This document shows, piece by piece, positions 24,529 to 32,726 of a DNA stretch of 34,592 nucleotides; position 1 is the stretch's first letter; each line of letters opens with the position of its first letter. The translations under genes were made by a program, and so were the position numbers. This DNA is from Bacteroidales bacterium. GTDB lineage: Bacteria > Bacteroidota > Bacteroidia > Bacteroidales > UBA3824. The DNA lies in assembly GCA_024401025.1 (NCBI GenBank), contig JAKSLV010000016.1:1-34592 (forward strand), given 5' to 3'. The notes under the pieces were generated by a model. The model did no database searches. It worked only from the letters and a program-made list of their open reading frames with translations, and was not told the origin of the DNA.

Positions 24529-26463
24529 ATGAGCATATATACCGACATACTAAAGAAATACTGGGGCTACGACGCTTTCCGCCCCTTGCAGGAGGAAATC
24601 ATAAAATCGGTGGCCGATTACGGCAAGGACACTCTGGGCCTGCTGCCCACGGGCGGCGGCAAGAGCATTATCTTCCAGGTGCCGGCTCTCAGCAAGAGCG
24701 GTGTCTGCATAGTGGTTACGCCCCTTATCGCCCTCATGAAAGACCAGGTGGAAAACCTGAGGCGGCGCAACATCAAGGCTGCCGCAATATACTCGGGCAT
24801 GACACAGCGCGAGATCCAGAACGCCTACGACTCATGCATATACGGCGATGTAAAGTTTCTGTACATGTCGCCCGAGAGGCTGGGCACCGAGATGTTCCTG
24901 CAGAAAATCCGCGATATGGAGATCAGCATACTGGCCATCGACGAGGCTCACTGCATATCGCAGTGGGGCTACGACTTCAGGCCCAGCTACCTCAGGATTG
25001 CCGATGTGCGCAAGGTGCTGCCCAAGGGTGTGCCCGTATTGGCGCTTACGGCCACTGCCACGCCCGAGGTGGCCAGCGACATCATGGACAAGCTGGGTTT
25101 CCGCGAGCCAAACCTCTTCAGGAAATCCTTTGCCAGGAAAAACCTTATATACATAGTGCGCCGCGTGGAAGACAAGAATCCGTATATGCTCAGGATTTTC
25201 AACTCGCAGCCGGGCACGGGCATAGTGTATGTGCGCAACCGCAAGCGCACCAAGGAGGCCAGCGAGTATCTCAAGCAGTGCGGCATCAGCTCGGAATATT
25301 TCCACGCGGGCCTCACCCCGGCCTACAAGGACTACCGCCAGCAGCAGTGGAAAGACGGCAACATCAGGGTGATATGCTCCACCAACGCTTTCGGAATGGG
25401 CATCGACAAGCCCGACGTGCGCACCGTGGTGCACATAGACCTGCCCGACAGCATGGAGGGATATTTTCAGGAGGCCGGACGCGGAGGCCGCGACGAGAAG
25501 AAGGCATACGCCGTATTGCTATACAACGACCGCGATATCAGCAGCCTAAGGAGAAACCTGACCAACTCGTTCCCCAGCAAGGACTTCATAAAGAATGTGT
25601 ACAACGCCCTGGGCAACTATCTACAGATTCCCATAGGCGCGGGCAGGGACGTGGCTTACGGATTCAACCTGCTGGATTTCGCCAACAAGTATCAGCTAAA
25701 CCAGCTGCAGCTGATAAGCGCGCTGCACATATTGCAGCGCAACGGATACATAGAAACCACCGAGGAGGTGTTTACGCAGGCCAAGGTGCAGATGCTGGTA
25801 TCCAGGGAAGACCTCTACAAGTTTCAGGTGGCTCAGAAGGCTTTCGATTCTTTCATAAAGCTGCTGCTGCGCAACCACGAGGGCATTTTCAGCAATGCCG
25901 TGGATGTGGACGAGGAGCAGATGGCCCGCGATGGCAAGTGCAAGGTGGATGTGATATACGCCTACCTGAACAAGCTGGCGCAGATGAGGGTGATAAGCTA
26001 CATTCCCCAGAAAAACCAGCCTTACATAATATACATATCGGAGCGCATAGATACCAAGGGCCTGATAATACGGCCCGAGACCTACGACCTCCTGCGCGAG
26101 AAGTATCAGCAGCGCATAAACGCCATGATAAAATACTGCATGAACGACCAGCAGTGCCGCAGCAGGCAGCTTACCGAGTATTTTGGCGAAACCGACGGCG
26201 AGGATTGCGGCGAGTGCGATGTGTGCCGCGCCAGAAAGAGGGCAGGGGAGGCCCCGGCGGCCTTCAACTCCATTTTCGACCAGGTGTTTGCGCTGCTGCG
26301 TGATAATGCCGGCGGCATGGATATCGATGCCATACTGGACCGCACATCGCAGCTGGACGACAGCGACGTGCGCGACGTGGTGCGCAAGATGATGCTGGAT
26401 GCCGTGGTGGAGGTTAGCGAGGAAGGCTTATATAGGCTTGTGGAAACAGCGACCGGGTCTTGA
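24529..26463 (+). CDS. recQ: RecQ-family ATP-dependent DNA helicase
   Basis: A 644-residue SF2 3'-5' helicase for recombination and replication repair. Motif 0 is GYDAFRPLQEEII, Walker A TGGGKS (residues 41-46), DEAH at 138-141 in IDEAHCISQWGYDFRP, motif III ALTATATPEV, and motifs V/VI FGMGIDKPDVR and QEAGRGGRDE. The RQC zinc site is C-x6-C (YCMNDQQCRSRQL) with CGECDVC, followed by a winged-helix region. No HRDC domain is evident; the tail ends in a short winged-helix-like segment (VVRKMMLDAVVEVSEEGLYR). Its last 50 bp overlap the 3' end of the opposing phosphatase gene. A Bacteroidota genome may carry more than one RecQ, so the symbol marks the family. Confidence 0.93.
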   Translation: MSIYTDILKKYWGYDAFRPLQEEIIKSVADYGKDTLGLLPTGGGKSIIFQVPALSKSGVCIVVTPLIALMKDQVENLRRRNIKAAAIYSGMTQREIQNAYDSCIYGDVKFLYMSPERLGTEMFLQKIRDMEISILAIDEAHCISQWGYDFRPSYLRIADVRKVLPKGVPVLALTATATPEVASDIMDKLGFREPNLFRKSFARKNLIYIVRRVEDKNPYMLRIFNSQPGTGIVYVRNRKRTKEASEYLKQCGISSEYFHAGLTPAYKDYRQQQWKDGNIRVICSTNAFGMGIDKPDVRTVVHIDLPDSMEGYFQEAGRGGRDEKKAYAVLLYNDRDISSLRRNLTNSFPSKDFIKNVYNALGNYLQIPIGAGRDVAYGFNLLDFANKYQLNQLQLISALHILQRNGYIETTEEVFTQAKVQMLVSREDLYKFQVAQKAFDSFIKLLLRNHEGIFSNAVDVDEEQMARDGKCKVDVIYAYLNKLAQMRVISYIPQKNQPYIIYISERIDTKGLIIRPETYDLLREKYQQRINAMIKYCMNDQQCRSRQLTEYFGETDGEDCGECDVCRARKRAGEAPAAFNSIFDQVFALLRDNAGGMDIDAILDRTSQLDDSDVRDVVRKMMLDAVVEVSEEGLYRLVETATGS

Positions 26464-28369
26464 TGCCCAGTATCAGGATGTCGTCGATCTGCTCGTAGTT
26501 TCTCTGCCAGTGGTTGAGTGTGATGTCGAGGGTTTCCTTCTGTCGCGGCAGTGGCATGCCGTGCATATCGGACAGGGTTTGCCTAAGGCGCGCCTTGGTG
26601 AATTTCTCGTGGTTGGGGCCGCCCACCTGATCGGTGTATCCGTCAGAGAACATGTAGATTACGTCGTCGGGGTCCAGCTGGAGGTTGATGGTGCGGAATG
26701 GCAGCTGCTTGAAATACCAGCACACCGGATTGTGGGTGCTGCGTATCTCGTCCAGATTGCCGTTTTTGCGCATTATCAGCAGGTCGATGTAGGCGCCGGC
26801 GTATTGGGCCTTAAGGGTCTCCTTGTTGAAAATCACCAGTCCGCAGTCCATGCCGTCGGTCGACGACTGGAGGTCGTCGGTCTGGTTGAGCGCCTTTATC
26901 ACCTGGCCGCGCACCTTGTCGAGCACCTGGCCCGGATCGGGCGCCTCGTGGCTGTTTTGGAACACCTCGTTGAAGAAAGTGATGTTGAGCACGCTAAGGA
27001 ATGCCGCCGGTACTCCGTGACCCGTGCAGTCGGCCACGGCCACCACGGTGTATTTGCTGTATTCCCTCACGTAGTAGAAATCGCCCGACACTATGTTTCT
27101 GGGCCTGTGGAACACAAAATAGTCGCTGAGTATCTCGCGGGCTTTCTTCTCGCCCTGGATGATGATTTTCTGCAGGCGGCTGGCGTAGTTGAGGCTGTTG
27201 TTGATGTTTTGGTTGGCCTTGCTGAGCAGGTTGTTGCTCTTGTTTTTGCGCTTGGTTTCCCTTAGGGCCACCAGCAGCGCCACCAGTGCCAGCACCGACA
27301 CCATCACGAATATTATTATCAAGTTGTGCTGGTTTTCCTTGGTGATCACCAGCTCGGATATCTCCTCCTGTTTCTTGTTGTTGTTGTATTTGGCCGACAG
27401 CTCGTTTATCTGAAGGATGGTCTCGCTGTTCTCCAGCGAGTCCTTTAGCTCCACGTGCCTCATTAGGTAGTCGTAGGCGGCGGCGTGGTTGCCCTGCTGC
27501 TTGTTTATGTATGATAGCTGGCGGAATATCTTGCTTAGCGATACGTAGTTGTGGGTCTGCTCGCAGTATTCGATGGCTCCGGTATAGTAAAGCGAGGCCA
27601 TGGTGTAGTTTTTCCTTATCATGTACAGGTCGGCCATGTATTGCGATATGCCCACGGATATGTCGGTAAGCTTGTCTTCCTGGGCGTATCTCATGGCCAC
27701 ACGGTATAGGCTTATGGCCTTGTCGATGTTGGCGGTGTCCAGCGATGTTATGTAGGCAATGTTGTTGTATGTTTTGGCCAGCTCGCGCTTGTTGTTCAGT
27801 TTCTGGTAAATCTCTATGTTTGCGTTGAAAATCTCCAGCGCCTTGTCGGTGTATCCCAGCATCATCGATGGCATGGCCACGGCGTTGTTGGCCTGTGCTA
27901 TCTCCAGCAGTTTGCCCTGATGCTTGCGTATCTTCAGCAGTATCTGGAAGTATTCCAGTGCGGTTTGCTTGTTGGCTGTCTGAGCCTCGGTTATGTGTCC
28001 GGGCAGGGTCTCGCGGTCATAGTTTAGCCTGTCGTAGTTTTTGCCTAGCACAAAGTATATCCTGGCGCGGAGGTCCAATATGGAGTCGGGCTCTTTGAAG
28101 ATGTCGTTTTCGGGCAGGAAATCGTCGGTGTTCGACATGTTGTTGAAGTATTCCATCGACAGCCGGCAGTAATACATCGATTTGGATATCGACACGGTTT
28201 CGTAGGCCTCGGCCAGCTGGGCCATGACCTTGGCTTTCTGATAGCCCTGCAGCGTATCAGCCCTCCTCTCCAGGTCTTGCAGGGGCGTAGGCTCCGTGTC
28301 CTGGCAGAAGGCTGGCATGCTGCATGCCATGCAGATGGCCGTTGCTAGTATCGATATTATCAGGCGCAT
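26414..28369 (-). CDS. TPR-transmembrane protein with C-terminal SpoIIE/PP2C serine phosphatase
   Basis: A 651-residue protein from the ATG at 28369, which starts a signal peptide (MRLIISILATAICMACS); an in-frame ATG at 28438 would overlap thiL and add a polar extension. Tetratricopeptide repeats span ~40-330 (e.g. LAKTYNNIAYITSLDTANID). One transmembrane helix lies at ~347-368 (NLIIIFVMVSVLALVALLVAL), then a coiled-coil linker and a SpoIIE phosphatase domain from ~400. Metal ligands are in GDFYYV (~429-434), VADCTGHGVPAAFLS (Asp447), DGYTDQ (Asp576) and the terminal QIDDILILGIK. So a periplasmic TPR sensor should control a cytoplasmic Ser/Thr phosphatase. It is 37 bp downstream of thiL and probably co-transcribed with the kinase-like gene. 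Its partner (anti-sigma or anti-anti-sigma protein) is not in the window. Confidence 0.92.
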   Translation of the reverse strand: MRLIISILATAICMACSMPAFCQDTEPTPLQDLERRADTLQGYQKAKVMAQLAEAYETVSISKSMYYCRLSMEYFNNMSNTDDFLPENDIFKEPDSILDLRARIYFVLGKNYDRLNYDRETLPGHITEAQTANKQTALEYFQILLKIRKHQGKLLEIAQANNAVAMPSMMLGYTDKALEIFNANIEIYQKLNNKRELAKTYNNIAYITSLDTANIDKAISLYRVAMRYAQEDKLTDISVGISQYMADLYMIRKNYTMASLYYTGAIEYCEQTHNYVSLSKIFRQLSYINKQQGNHAAAYDYLMRHVELKDSLENSETILQINELSAKYNNNKKQEEISELVITKENQHNLIIIFVMVSVLALVALLVALRETKRKNKSNNLLSKANQNINNSLNYASRLQKIIIQGEKKAREILSDYFVFHRPRNIVSGDFYYVREYSKYTVVAVADCTGHGVPAAFLSVLNITFFNEVFQNSHEAPDPGQVLDKVRGQVIKALNQTDDLQSSTDGMDCGLVIFNKETLKAQYAGAYIDLLIMRKNGNLDEIRSTHNPVCWYFKQLPFRTINLQLDPDDVIYMFSDGYTDQVGGPNHEKFTKARLRQTLSDMHGMPLPRQKETLDITLNHWQRNYEQIDDILILGIKTRSLFPQAYISLPR

Positions 28370-28406: not shown

Positions 28407-29399
28407 TCAGCACGCAAAATGGTCGTATCCGCCGCCAAAGGCGTTGGTGGATATTCCGTTCTCGGTGTATATCACTTGCTGGCCGGGGGCTGCTGTTATG
28501 CGGCCTATGGCCGTGATCTTCATCTTGTTGGCCCATTCCTGGGTATAGAATGCGGGGTCTACGGTAAATAGCAGCTCGTAGTCCTCGCCGCCGCATAGGG
28601 CCAGCTCGTTTATCGTGGAGCTGCCCAGGCCCGTCTCCCTCAGCGTCGGGCTTATGGGCAGGGCGGTGGTTTCTATCATGGCTGATACGTTGCTCCTTTG
28701 CAGTATGTGCCTTATGTCTGATGCCACACCGTCGGATATGTCCATCATGGAGTGTACCTGGCTGATGCTGCCCAGTTGCTGTCCCAGCAGTATCCGGGGC
28801 TTTGGGGCGTGGTGGCGACGTATCAGCTTCAGGGCATTGTCGTTGCGCTCCAGCGATGGGTCCAGTATGTACCTGAGGCCGGCTGCCGAATCGCCCAGCG
28901 GACCCGATACGCATATTATGTCGCCGGGCAGTGATTTGTCGCGGCCCTTGCTGCGGCCCTCGGGGCAGTGGCCTATCACGGTTACGTTTATGGCCAGTCC
29001 GTGGCGGCTGCCGGTGGTGTCGCCGCCCAGCAGAGGGCATCCATACACTGTGGACAGCTTGTAGAATCCGTCCATGAAGCTGTCGAGAAACTCCACCTCC
29101 ACATCGCCTGGCACGGCTATGGACAGAAACGCGCCGCAGGGTGTGGAGCCTGATGCCGCCAGATCGCTGAGGTTTACGGCCAGCGACTTGTGCCCTAGCA
29201 GGTAGCCGCCTATCTCGGATCGCACAAAGTGCACATCCTCTATCAGCATGTCGGTGCTTACGGTGTATTCGTGACCGCCTATGTTGGGGATTACGGCGCA
29301 GTCGTCGCCTATGCCGGTGTATCCCTTGGGCAGGTTCTGGAAGTGTTTCTCGCTGAATCTCTTTATGAATCCGAATTCACCTATCTCGTTTAGTCTCAT
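28407..29399 (-). CDS. thiL: Thiamine-monophosphate kinase
   Basis: A 330-residue enzyme making thiamine diphosphate from thiamine monophosphate and ATP. The frame is open further upstream, but MRLNEIGEFGFIKRF is the normal start. Motifs are GYTGIGDDCAVIP, STDMLIEDVHFVRSEI, AVNLSDLAASGSTPCGAFLS, GGDTTGSRHG, MMDISDGVASDIRHIL and LCGGEDYELLFTV, all in AIR-synthase-fold order. The ATG overlaps the stop of the upstream kinase-like gene as ATGA, so translation is probably coupled. A biosynthetic enzyme lies between a sensory kinase-like protein and a SpoIIE phosphatase, which is an odd operon neighbourhood. No TPP riboswitch is seen near it. Confidence 0.96.
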   Translation of the reverse strand: MRLNEIGEFGFIKRFSEKHFQNLPKGYTGIGDDCAVIPNIGGHEYTVSTDMLIEDVHFVRSEIGGYLLGHKSLAVNLSDLAASGSTPCGAFLSIAVPGDVEVEFLDSFMDGFYKLSTVYGCPLLGGDTTGSRHGLAINVTVIGHCPEGRSKGRDKSLPGDIICVSGPLGDSAAGLRYILDPSLERNDNALKLIRRHHAPKPRILLGQQLGSISQVHSMMDISDGVASDIRHILQRSNVSAMIETTALPISPTLRETGLGSSTINELALCGGEDYELLFTVDPAFYTQEWANKMKITAIGRITAAPGQQVIYTENGISTNAFGGGYDHFAC

Positions 29400-31576
29400 T
29401 GTGTAATGGCGTTTAGTTTCATATCCATCTCCTTGCACAGCTCGCTGATGTCGGGCTCCTGAGCGGTAACTATCAGCGGTGCGTTGGGGTATCGTTTCAG
29501 CAGGCTTATGGCGGCCGGATGCGATATCACCCTCTCGTCTATCAGCATCAGGCTTATGGTGCTGAAGTAGTTGGAGAACTGCTGATATGTGTTGTCGGAG
29601 TCGGAATCGTCGCTTATTAGTATGGCGCCGTATTTGGCTCCCGTCTTCATTATCTGGCTGCTTATGAGCGCGTTGTTGTATTTGCTGCATCCCATCAGCA
29701 GTATGCGGTGGTGGTCCCAGCTGTAGGATGCCTCGTATTGGCCATCGCTGATGGCTGCGGGCCTGGTGTATGGCACCGTAAAGAATACCGTGGTGCCGTT
29801 GTTGGGCTCCGATTCTATCCAGAGCCTTCCGCCCATGAGCTCCGCAAGGTTTTTGCAGATGTTGAGGTCTATGGCGGTGTGCTCCAGCTTCAGGTGTATC
29901 AGCTGATCGGGGTATTCCTGGCGTCCGGGATCGAATATGTCGGATTTATCGCCCAGGGGTATTCCCATTCCGTTGTCGGCCACACTAAACTGAAGCTCGT
30001 TGTTGCAGAGCTTGCAGCGTATCCATATTTTGCCTATCTGCGTAAACTTGTATGCCTGCTCTATAAGTGTGGACAGTATCTGCCTTATCCTCCTGAAGTC
30101 GGCTCGTATCAGGTGGGCGTCGCTCGGGAGGTCCACCGTGGTGTTCAGGGTTACGGGTTTCTTGTCCACATACAGGTTTTTGTAGTAATACTGGTCGTAG
30201 ATCTCTGTTATCAGCTCGTCTACGTTGCCGGTAGATATCTTTATCCTCATGCGGCCTTTCAGTATCAGGTCCAGGTCGGAGAGGTCGTCGGAGAGGTCCT
30301 TTACAAAATCGCACCTTTCCATGATCTGCCTTGTGGCCGAGCTTTTGTCGGCGGGGCTTGCGGTGTTGTCGGCCAGCACTTCGGCCAGCTGCCTTATGGT
30401 GTTTATGGGCGTGGCCAGCTCGCGGCTGATGTTGGTGATGTAGCCCAGCTGCTGCTTGTGCGAGTCGCTGATTTTCTCGTTGGCCTCGCTGAGTTTGGCG
30501 TTTACGTCGTTTATCTGGCGGTTTTGCAGTTTCAGCTCCTCGTATAGACGCCTGAACTCGGCGTTCTGCTCTCGTATTATCTTCTCGTTGCTGCGTGTAA
30601 GCTTGTCGTGGAGGTGACGCTCGGTGATGTCGCGTATGATGCCCATGTATCCGGAAGGTATGCCTCCGGGTCCGAATGTCTTTAGTCCTCGGCTGTCGCA
30701 GTATACGTTGTATCCTTTCTTGTGCTTGAATGTTAGTCTGCTGTCGAACAGGCTCTCGTCCACGGTGTTGGTGTATCTAAGCAGCGTGTGGAGCGATTCG
30801 TTGTCGGTGATGATGTCGTGCGGCATGCGGCCTATGAGCTCGTCGGTGGTGTAGCCCAGTATCTTCTCGGAGTTTCCGGATATGTATTTTATGTGTCCGG
30901 TGGAATCCAGTTCCCAGAACAGGTCGTAGGAGCAGCGGGCCAGCATGTTGAATCTGTCCTCGGTGTCGCGTATCTCTTGCTGGGCCTCGTCTTGCAGCAG
31001 GCTGGCCTTCATCATGCGCCCCATCATCAGCACTGTGGCCGGCATCAGCACCCATACGGGCAGTATGGTTTCCGTGAGCTGTGCCCTGGTATCGGCCGAC
31101 GGGGTGATGGCTATGCAGGCGTACAGTATGCCTTGCAGTATCAGCGAACAGATAAACAGGGTGGTGTAGTAGTGGCTGTGTTTCCAACGGGGCAGCATCA
31201 GACGCACGCCCTCATAAAGGCCTATTGCCGGCAGGGTGGATATTAGCTGAAGCAGCGCGTCGTGCATGGTGGGGGCGTACCACAGCGTGAAGGCCGTCAT
31301 CATGGCGGTGGATATCAGCATGGGCAGCCTGCCCCAAAGGAGTCCGGTGATGCAGAGCACCACGGTGCGAGCGTCTAGCAGGGTGTAGTATTCCATCCAT
31401 ACCACCTTTTTGGTGATAAGCAGCACGCCCAACAGGCCCTGCGACAGGCCCATCCAGATGTCGTAGCGGCGTTTGGGATTGGTGGTTTTCAGTTTCCAGA
31501 AATAGTCGGATACTACGAAGTATATCAGCAGTATGGCCGATATTTCCAGAAAACAGGCTACTGCGGTGTTGCCCAT
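29396..31576 (-). CDS. Degenerate hybrid sensor histidine kinase (5TM-PAS-HisKA/HATPase-pseudoreceiver)
   Basis: A 726-residue membrane protein. The N-terminal ~190 residues hold about five or six hydrophobic helices with a 5TMR-LYT-like signature (DARTVVLCITGLLWGRLPML). A PAS domain follows (~205-325: ELDSTGHIKYISGNSEKILG, ending GIIRDITERHLHDK), then a coiled coil, a HisKA-like helix pair and a HATPase_c-like domain. The H-box reads NISRELATPIN: the phospho-acceptor His is Arg385 (CGC, one base from CAC). The N-box Asn is Gln507 (EQAYKFT), and the G2 glycine loop is LEHTAIDLN; DNGMGIP and GTTVFF survive. The C-terminal ~115 residues look like a receiver (ILLMGCSK...LMLIDERV...PLIVTAQEP) without the acidic pair. 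Probably a catalytically dead signalling scaffold. The frame is intact. Stop overlaps thiL start (ATGA). Confidence 0.88.
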   Translation of the reverse strand: MGNTAVACFLEISAILLIYFVVSDYFWKLKTTNPKRRYDIWMGLSQGLLGVLLITKKVVWMEYYTLLDARTVVLCITGLLWGRLPMLISTAMMTAFTLWYAPTMHDALLQLISTLPAIGLYEGVRLMLPRWKHSHYYTTLFICSLILQGILYACIAITPSADTRAQLTETILPVWVLMPATVLMMGRMMKASLLQDEAQQEIRDTEDRFNMLARCSYDLFWELDSTGHIKYISGNSEKILGYTTDELIGRMPHDIITDNESLHTLLRYTNTVDESLFDSRLTFKHKKGYNVYCDSRGLKTFGPGGIPSGYMGIIRDITERHLHDKLTRSNEKIIREQNAEFRRLYEELKLQNRQINDVNAKLSEANEKISDSHKQQLGYITNISRELATPINTIRQLAEVLADNTASPADKSSATRQIMERCDFVKDLSDDLSDLDLILKGRMRIKISTGNVDELITEIYDQYYYKNLYVDKKPVTLNTTVDLPSDAHLIRADFRRIRQILSTLIEQAYKFTQIGKIWIRCKLCNNELQFSVADNGMGIPLGDKSDIFDPGRQEYPDQLIHLKLEHTAIDLNICKNLAELMGGRLWIESEPNNGTTVFFTVPYTRPAAISDGQYEASYSWDHHRILLMGCSKYNNALISSQIMKTGAKYGAILISDDSDSDNTYQQFSNYFSTISLMLIDERVISHPAAISLLKRYPNAPLIVTAQEPDISELCKEMDMKLNAITQ

Positions 31577-31616: not shown

Positions 31617-31664
31617 ATAATCGGGGTGTCAGGCAGATGCTGTTTTGCCTGACGCCTCGATTAT
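31617..31664 (-). terminator. Long hairpin between galM and the kinase-like gene (terminator or attenuator)
   Basis: A ~19-bp stem: GTCAGGCA (31628-31635) pairs perfectly with TGCCTGAC (31646-31653), continues through GGGG/CCTC-type pairing with two wobbles, and extends to ATAATC/GATTAT. The loop is 10 nt. In the leftward direction it is followed only by T-rich sequence (TTTAATTAG), not a clean T-run, so full termination of galM transcription is uncertain. No convincing promoter was seen for the kinase-like gene, so read-through is possible. Confidence 0.5.
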
Positions 31665-31703: not shown

Positions 31704-32726
31704 TTATGCCTCGAACTTGAATACTGCCTTGTGGGTGTATTCCTGGCCGGGGCAGAGTGTTGTGGATGCAAACTGTGGATTGTTGGGGGCATCAGGATAG
31801 TGCTGAGTCTCGAAACAGAATGCGCTCTGGCGTGTAACCTTCTTGCCGTATGGAGTGTCGAGGGTGCCGTCCAGGAAGTTGCCGGTGTAGAACTGCATGC
31901 CGGGCTCCGATGTGTACACCTTCATTACGCGGCCGCTCTCGGGATCCTTTACCTCGGCGGCAAATGTCATCTCGTCGCCGTTCTTGTTCAGGCAGTAGTT
32001 GTGGTCGTACCAGAAGTCCTTGATTGTATTGAGCACTGTGGGCTTGCGGAAATCGAAGGCTGTGCCCTCCACGGGGGCTATCTTGCCGGTAGGGATGCTC
32101 TCGGCATCCACCTCGGTGATGGCGTCGGCGTTTATCTGAACCTGATAGCCCGATATCGATGGAGTCTTGAAATCGCCGCTCAGGTTGAAGTAGGCGTGCT
32201 GTGTAAGGTTTACGATGGTGGTCTTGTCGGTGGTGGCCTTGTATGTTATGGCCAGCTCGTTGTTCTCTGTAACCTTGTATGTTACCTGCGATGTAAGTGT
32301 GCCGGGGAAGTTTTCCTCGCCGTCGGGCGATACGTACTCGAATGTGATCTCGGGTCCGCAGGCCTTGTCGTCCATGCTCTTTACGGTCCAGTTTTTCTCA
32401 TGGAATCCGTGAGGGCCGCCGTGGAGCGAGTTTTGTCCGTCGTTGGCGTTAAGCTTGTATTCCTTGCCCTCCAGGCTGAACTTGCACTTGCCTATTCTGT
32501 TGGCGTATCTGCCTGGCACCACGCTTATGTAGCATGTGTTTTTCACGTACTCGTCATAGTCTTTCAGCTGTACTATCACGTTCTCTATCTTGCCGTTCTT
32601 GTCGGGTGTGCAGAGGCTTATCATTGTGGCTCCGCGCTCCATAAACGATGCTGTCATGCCCTTGCTGTTGGCCAGGGTATAGATCTTTACGCCTTTGGCG
32701 GCGTCGTAGATATCGGTCTTTATCAT
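31704..32726 (-). CDS. galM: Aldose 1-epimerase (galactose mutarotase)
   Basis: A 340-residue cytoplasmic enzyme (no signal peptide) interconverting alpha and beta anomers of galactose/glucose for the Leloir pathway. Signatures are VVPGRYANRIGKCKFSLEGK, NSLHGGPHGFHEKNW (first His), VNLTQHAYFNLSGDF (catalytic His), YTSEPGMQFYTGN and the catalytic Glu in FCFETQHYPDAPNNP. Length is normal. Its own promoter is at 32766-32797. No galK or galT lies nearby. Codon use is moderately biased. Confidence 0.97.
   Translation of the reverse strand: MIKTDIYDAAKGVKIYTLANSKGMTASFMERGATMISLCTPDKNGKIENVIVQLKDYDEYVKNTCYISVVPGRYANRIGKCKFSLEGKEYKLNANDGQNSLHGGPHGFHEKNWTVKSMDDKACGPEITFEYVSPDGEENFPGTLTSQVTYKVTENNELAITYKATTDKTTIVNLTQHAYFNLSGDFKTPSISGYQVQINADAITEVDAESIPTGKIAPVEGTAFDFRKPTVLNTIKDFWYDHNYCLNKNGDEMTFAAEVKDPESGRVMKVYTSEPGMQFYTGNFLDGTLDTPYGKKVTRQSAFCFETQHYPDAPNNPQFASTTLCPGQEYTHKAVFKFEA

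Follow-up and report, generated by a model that had tools for sequence, protein, structure and literature searches.

Both pseudo-histidine kinases and pseudo-receivers are established classes of signalling protein, although few cases of the former have been studied. Amongst the systems closest to the one described here, DivL of Caulobacter crescentus is not known to carry a receiver, RcsD of Escherichia coli passes phosphate via an Hpt domain and RetS is a kinase that acts on another kinase. DivL is reported to have Tyr in place of the phospho-acceptor His, to bind an ATP analogue weakly, to show no kinase or phosphatase activity and to act by binding phosphorylated DivK (PMC4211667). In pseudo-receivers the acidic pair is missing and other active-site residues vary; ShkA and CikA are examples of hybrid kinases that contain them (Bourret et al. 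2025; PMC12632262), and the same 2025 review calls their mechanisms a mystery. HisKA domains without His make up 722 of 76,471 (0.9%) in that review (PMC12632262). Here we describe a gene on the minus strand of a contig of a Bacteroidales bacterium (JAKSLV010000016.1, assembly GCA_024401025.1, positions 1 to 34,592), the whole 34,592-nucleotide stretch being referred to as the window. The gene most likely belongs to a selected family of pseudo-histidine kinases of this known kind, of which the window member is the most eroded.

Catalytic motifs and domains of the window protein

The reading frame and the motifs that bear on its chemistry are as follows.

29396..31576, minus strand: open reading frame of the probable hybrid pseudo-histidine kinase, 726 codons, the span including the stop
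30422..30424, minus strand: codon for Arg385, which stands in place of the phospho-acceptor His, the H-box reading NISRELATPIN
30410..30421, minus strand: retained Glu386-Leu-Ala-Thr389, an E/DxxT/N phosphatase-type motif
30056..30058, minus strand: Gln507 codon replacing the N-box Asn (EQAYKFT)
29957..29983, minus strand: intact G1 box region, VADNGMGIP, residues 532-540
29861..29887, minus strand: G2 loop without glycines, LEHTAIDLN, residues 564-572, with A568 and D570 at the glycine positions

The protein lacks the H-box His, the N-box Asn and the G2 glycines, all of which are expected in an active hybrid histidine kinase, and from these residues we infer that it would neither autophosphorylate nor relay phosphate. 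An earlier note on this DNA had quoted the strings NISRELATPIN, EQAYKFT, LEHTAIDLN and ILLMGCSK, all of which are present on the minus strand, and had described an intact frame, which we could confirm: all 726 codons are open, with no internal stop, and frame 1 of the plus strand over the same span contains seven stops. Its statement that every catalytic part had been lost went too far, as the G1 box (DNGMG), E386, T389 and an Asp at the receiver acceptor position (D680) are still there. The GC content by codon position is 0.508/0.370/0.744, against 0.484/0.384/0.733 for the adjacent galM gene. Sequencing error is an unlikely explanation, given several separate motif changes, an open frame and normal GC by codon position.

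Such losses are rare within the same genome, where His is kept in 24 of the 26 HisKA matches found at E≤0.001. The two exceptions are the window gene, with Arg, and a gene on contig C179, with Asp. In the latter (L121:812-2359) the H-box reads NINDELRNP, the ATPase boxes look intact and, by eye, a receiver-like C-terminal part seemingly has no acidic pair.

The domains of the window protein were assigned as follows.

30977..31576, minus strand: membrane sensor domain, 5TMR-LYT-like, residues 1-200 (PF07694, 20.2 bits, cut-off 24.6)
30614..30976, minus strand: PAS domain, residues 201-321 (PF00989, 33.1 bits)
30257..30442, minus strand: dimerization and histidine phosphotransfer (DHp), or HisKA, domain, residues 379-440 (PF00512, 18.1 bits, under the cut-off of 26.9)
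29762..30256, minus strand: HATPase (CA) domain, residues 441-605 (HATPase_c, 70.7 bits)
29399..29707, minus strand: putative truncated pseudo-receiver, residues 624-726, predicted as b1-a1-b2-a2-b3-a3-b4-a
29687..29692, minus strand: Gly629-Cys630, aligned with the acidic pair of receivers, within ILLMGCSK
29537..29539, minus strand: Asp680, where receivers have the phospho-acceptor Asp; unchanged across all 15 family members

Of the full hybrid layout claimed in the earlier note, Pfam finds the PAS and HATPase parts and, below their cut-offs, the membrane and HisKA parts; it calls no receiver in the window protein, and the predicted structure lacks the part that would be alpha4-beta5. The membrane domain was found at E≤1 in all 14 family members scanned (best 2e-12), scoring above the cut-off of 24.6 in L015 (34.6), L009 (37.0) and L010 (40.0) and below it in L017 (17.0) and L020 (22.8). 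An AlphaFold2 model of the whole protein (mean pLDDT 74, pTM 0.38, 14 sequences in the alignment) places in order helical membrane segments over residues 1-200, the PAS domain, a long coiled coil continuing into DHp, the ATPase domain and the C-terminal domain, with low confidence in the ATPase lid (residues 554-565). The histidine kinase fold of DHp and CA is thus predicted to be retained.

DivL was the first structural match of the window protein, tied with HK853, and came twelfth when ranked by Foldseek E-value. The match spans residues 359-607 (26% in the structural alignment), the DivL chain 4q20 being the C-terminal part only. DivL differs from the window protein by alignment in keeping the N-box Asn and the G2 glycines, both gone here, and also in its sensor and in a role that depends on DivK and CckA. 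RetS was likewise amongst the structural matches, the RetS-GacS complex 7n0e being listed. RcsD has an Hpt domain, for which a Pfam scan of the window protein gave no match; it resembles the window protein in having a transmitter domain without the conserved His (PMC3842833). LytS-type sensors with a 5TMR-LYT domain, such as BtsS, share the Pfam family of the membrane domain, which is weak in the window; BtsS differs in that it is active as a kinase, binds pyruvate and has BtsR as its partner regulator (PMC10653868). The C-terminal domain resembles pseudo-receivers in lacking, as aligned, the acidic pair, and differs in that Asp occupies the acceptor position in 15 of 15 members, compared with about 65% of pseudo-receivers (Bourret et al. 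2025), and in a fold that is predicted to be truncated.

The relationship to receivers is the weakest part of this domain reading, being weak by sequence, although the predicted order of strands and helices fits. Response_reg was matched in 1 of 14 members, under its cut-off, and eight of the 16 matches of a family profile to solved structures at E≤10 were named response regulators (best E 0.047). Alignment with hhalign to one canonical receiver covered 77 columns (P 5e-4, prob 31) and to a second 13 columns only (P 0.09, prob 0.6), compared with P 0.64 and prob 0.1 for a galM control. In the model D680 is the final residue of strand b3, and in the alignment it pairs with the Asp of a canonical receiver. 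As aligned, none of the 15 members has both acids of the acidic pair and L009 has one (Glu); this register depends on alignment to a single canonical receiver, and with a one-residue shift L009 would gain a Glu-Asp pair and the window would still have none. The KP of strand 5 is found in one member (L015).

Orthologues and the repeated loss of the histidine

Relatives over nearly the whole protein, one each, are found in 15 of the 19 genomes of the genus, which belongs to the gut Bacteroidales. In all 15 the upstream neighbour, in the same direction, is galM:

31704..32726, minus strand: galM, aldose 1-epimerase (PF01263, 310.7 bits)

Orthology across the family is thus fixed by synteny behind galM. 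The orthologues share 25-31% of residues with the window protein in the multiple alignment (13 compared) and 26-33% in pairwise comparison (14 compared), and galM is 63-69% identical to the window galM (13 genomes; one galM was missed by the search pattern). No match covering residues before 208 was found in 41 genomes outside the genus. A wider scan, which used two short peptide patterns and was not exhaustive, returned 42 loci; the best 14 (E≤1e-72) were taken as genus members and the next locus had an E of 6e-29. As far as searched, the galM-linked family is confined to one genus of gut Bacteroidales.

Eleven of the 15 orthologues lack the His. It is kept in L009, L015, L020 and L021 and is replaced by Gln in four, Arg in three (including the window), Asn in two and Ser in two. 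In the ATP site, the N-box Asn is present in 14 of 15 and gone in the window alone, G1 (DxGxG) is present in all 15, and the G2 loop has both glycines in seven, the second only in a further seven and neither in the window, such that the second glycine (570) is present in 14 of 15. N507Q and G570D are therefore found only in the window, the one member without the Asn and glycines by which Mg-ATP is held. The earlier note held that close orthologues whose H, N and G2 boxes were canonical would point to a recent local loss. None was found that is close; canonical boxes do exist in L009 and L015, at about 30% identity to the window. A recent local loss is unsupported, there being no close canonical orthologue, and 10 of the 14 relatives that are about 30% identical having no His either.

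When the H-box columns are left out, the maximum-likelihood tree requires at least three changes between His and non-His, the kinase having lost its acceptor His on no fewer than three occasions. The best tree with all His-less rows in a single clade lies 284 log units lower and is rejected (p-AU 3e-47). The longest branch is that of the window, at 1.2 changes per column, followed by L009 (0.61), L011 (0.58) and L015 (0.51), and because of these long branches the deep joins are less sure. The galM tree agrees in placing L011 with L012 and L016, L013 with L014, and L015 with the six members L017-L022; it differs in that L009 is not joined to L013/L014 and the window stands alone, L010 being absent from it. 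Most simply, a common ancestor would already have lost receiver chemistry; repeated losses of His would have followed, with loss of the ATP-site Asn in the window lineage only. It is possible, if a little short of probable, that a galM-linked sensor turned at least three times from a phosphorelay kinase to phosphate-free signalling after an early loss of the receiver, with the window protein as an end point at which ATP binding would be gone as well and shape alone would carry the signal. In such a history the ancestral loss of receiver chemistry would have made the His dispensable.

Selection on the family and competing explanations

Purifying selection on the His-less orthologues is evident from the ratio of non-synonymous to synonymous substitution (dN/dS) between close pairs, the constraint being plain in the ATPase domain, and two of the pairs showing less of it in DHp. 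The residues at the H position are given in brackets.

L013/L014 (R/R): NG86 0.11, YN00 0.15; ATPase 0.07, receiver 0.11, DHp 0.43
L018/L022 (Q/Q): NG86 0.09, YN00 0.10; ATPase 0.08, receiver 0.15, DHp 0.11
L017/L019 (Q/Q): NG86 0.07 at a high dS of 1.1, YN00 0.04; ATPase 0.05, receiver 0.05, DHp 0.04
L012/L016 (N/S): NG86 0.26, YN00 0.23; ATPase 0.13, receiver 0.32, DHp 0.42
L020/L021 (H/H): NG86 0.13, YN00 0.15; DHp with zero replacements

Two deeper pairs gave NG86 values of 0.14 at a dS of 1.6 (L017/L018, Q/Q) and 0.08 at a dS of 2.9 (the mixed pair L018/L020, Q/H). Over the same seven pairs galM gave 0.01-0.06, and the kinase exceeded it in all seven. The PAS and ATPase domains are the best conserved parts of the family, with a mean pairwise identity of 0.43 for PAS amongst nine spread members.

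As the window copy has no close relative, we graded alignment columns by their agreement amongst six other lineages and counted how many of them the window retains. From an agreement of six down to one, these were 53/69, 38/65, 51/116, 56/183, 37/231 and 0/21, a slope that resembles that of each other lineage. Such graded retention suggests that the window copy was constrained over much of its branch; a more recent release from constraint is conceivable from these columns. The proposal of the earlier note, a selected pseudokinase rather than a pseudogene, is thus supported for the family, with dN/dS of 0.04-0.26 in four close His-less pairs, and for the window copy only indirectly, through column retention.

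On balance, the protein is probably a membrane sensor derived from a hybrid kinase that now acts as a pseudo-histidine kinase, with conformational signalling to a partner through DHp. A signal would be sensed by the membrane and PAS domains, and the resulting change of shape would be transmitted along the coiled coil to the surface of DHp. This surface may bind a response regulator or pair with an active kinase, altering the state of the partner, as DivL does in Caulobacter. Because Glu386-xx-Thr389 is retained in the window, our guess would be that the protein is a negative regulator.

A number of observations weigh against this reading. DHp is the surface that the mechanism needs, yet only the receiver is less conserved, and two His-less pairs have lax DHp values; the partner contact may drift, or the role given to the DHp surface may be wrong. 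No partner protein was identified. Neither Arg385 nor Gln507, the conservation of which the earlier note had suggested checking, is conserved, the H position holding H, R, Q, N or S and the N-box Asn being kept in the other 14; a role for these residues themselves as a family trait was therefore rejected. The +4 residue of the retained motif is T or N in only nine of 15 members, and the DivL precedent itself showed no phosphatase activity (PMC4211667). The window copy, with no close relative, is on the longest branch, and its retention at the tightest columns (0.77) is the lowest of the seven lineages (0.84-0.96 in the others). Lastly, the kinase is absent in genomes G004 and G009, where a block of an S41 protease and galM is directly followed by rimO (named by eye), and in L013 (genome G014) there is an in-frame TGA at codon 307; the gene is therefore dispensable in some species. 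The TGA is either a recent break or an assembly error, with dN/dS for L013 against L014 of 0.13 before it and 0.10 after it. In G004 (L100) and G009 (L099) the absence is a clean one, with galM followed by a convergent rimO (named from its start). No such galM block was seen in G007 and G015, so that the absence of the kinase there cannot be judged.

Several of these points also favour the rival that best survives, namely that this is a dispensable sensor gene in slow decay, under weak and fading selection, the window copy being at a late stage with its frame still open. Absence from two genomes, the TGA in L013, the longest branch together with the unique losses N507Q and G570D, and DHp ratios of 0.42-0.43 in two His-less pairs would all be expected of such a gene, as would a rate of change much above that of galM (25-33% against 63-69% identity to the window, with higher dN/dS in seven of seven pairs). 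However, the four close His-less pairs have low ratios overall and in the ATPase domain, and the window keeps 77% of the columns that are invariant in the six other lineages, with a GC content by codon position like that of galM. We regard decay as rather unlikely.

The ATP site often supports the phosphatase activity of histidine kinases. A second rival, which we consider improbable, is that the protein is a dedicated phosphatase which, having no acceptor His, would not phosphorylate and would use the DHp helix with Glu386-xx-Thr389 to dephosphorylate a response regulator. All 15 members have E386 and the window also has T389, HisKA phosphatase activity has been attributed to the E/DxxT/N motif (PMC3842833), and the His is said to contribute to this activity without being essential for it (PMC12632262). 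Against this, the ATP site of the window protein is damaged, six of 15 orthologues have Ala, Ser or Pro at +4, so that the whole family cannot have this function, and an argument from frequencies has been made against phosphatase as the general role (PMC12632262). The window protein itself may remove phosphate, as E386-xx-T389 fits the motif, which six of 15 orthologues lack.

The least probable rival, that the protein lends its sensor to an active kinase by pairing with it for phosphotransfer in trans, would suit the long continuous helices modelled for the coiled coil and DHp and the presence of RetS amongst the structural matches, but the variability of DHp is unlike a fixed dimer interface, and the 21 other kinase matches in the window genome (75% complete) all begin at or after residue 327 of the query, the closest (contig C143, 32% over residues 361-623) differing by eye in its N-terminal part. 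A paralogue with the same sensor was thus not seen as a dimer partner in that genome.

Neighbouring genes and the place of the family

Two further features flank the kinase gene in the window.

31618..31663, minus strand: strong stem-loop separating galM from the kinase gene (RNA fold z -6.1)
28407..29399, minus strand: thiL (Pfam AIRS and AIRS_C), starting within the kinase stop with a 4-base overlap, ATGA, at 29396-29399

In a consensus scan the stem-loop was terminator-like on the plus strand only, and the six sites found in total were no more than in shuffles; the kinase may or may not be co-transcribed with galM. The downstream gene that the earlier note had described as coupled does overlap the kinase stop in the window, but only five of the 15 genomes have thiL, whole or as a remnant, after the kinase: the gene in the window and G002, and a C-terminal remnant in G008, G011 and G012. 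In G001, G004, G009 and G017 thiL is located elsewhere. Its placement across genomes led us to reject thiL as a functional partner that is a trait of the family. The remnant in G008 (L041:5264-5773; 170 amino acids) has a 4-base overlap with the kinase stop and no Pfam match at E 0.01, and similar remnants, of the C-terminal part of ThiL only, lie at the same place in G012 (L039) and G011 (L044). G008 and G011 have a distant full-length thiL relative (about 30% identity) at another place, and no such relative was found in G012, which is 64% complete. After thiL, the window encodes a protein with TPR and a SpoIIE-type phosphatase domain (26414-28369); in G002, G008 and G012 the gene order is shared, relatives of this protein being separated from the upstream genes by what looks by eye like an MFS transporter.

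In searches of the literature on pseudo-histidine kinases, pseudokinases, the ExxT motif, rumen pseudo-receivers and 5TMR-LYT sensors, we recognised no paper describing this family. As far as these searches show, what is new is a set of orthologues that have lost His repeatedly while under purifying selection, the invariant Asp in a receiver predicted to be truncated, and the window protein as the extreme case. One family thus spans members with intact H, N and G2 boxes and several further stages of loss, with its orthology fixed by synteny. It offers a natural series in which to ask in what order a kinase can shed its chemistry and yet stay selected, and what signal is left.

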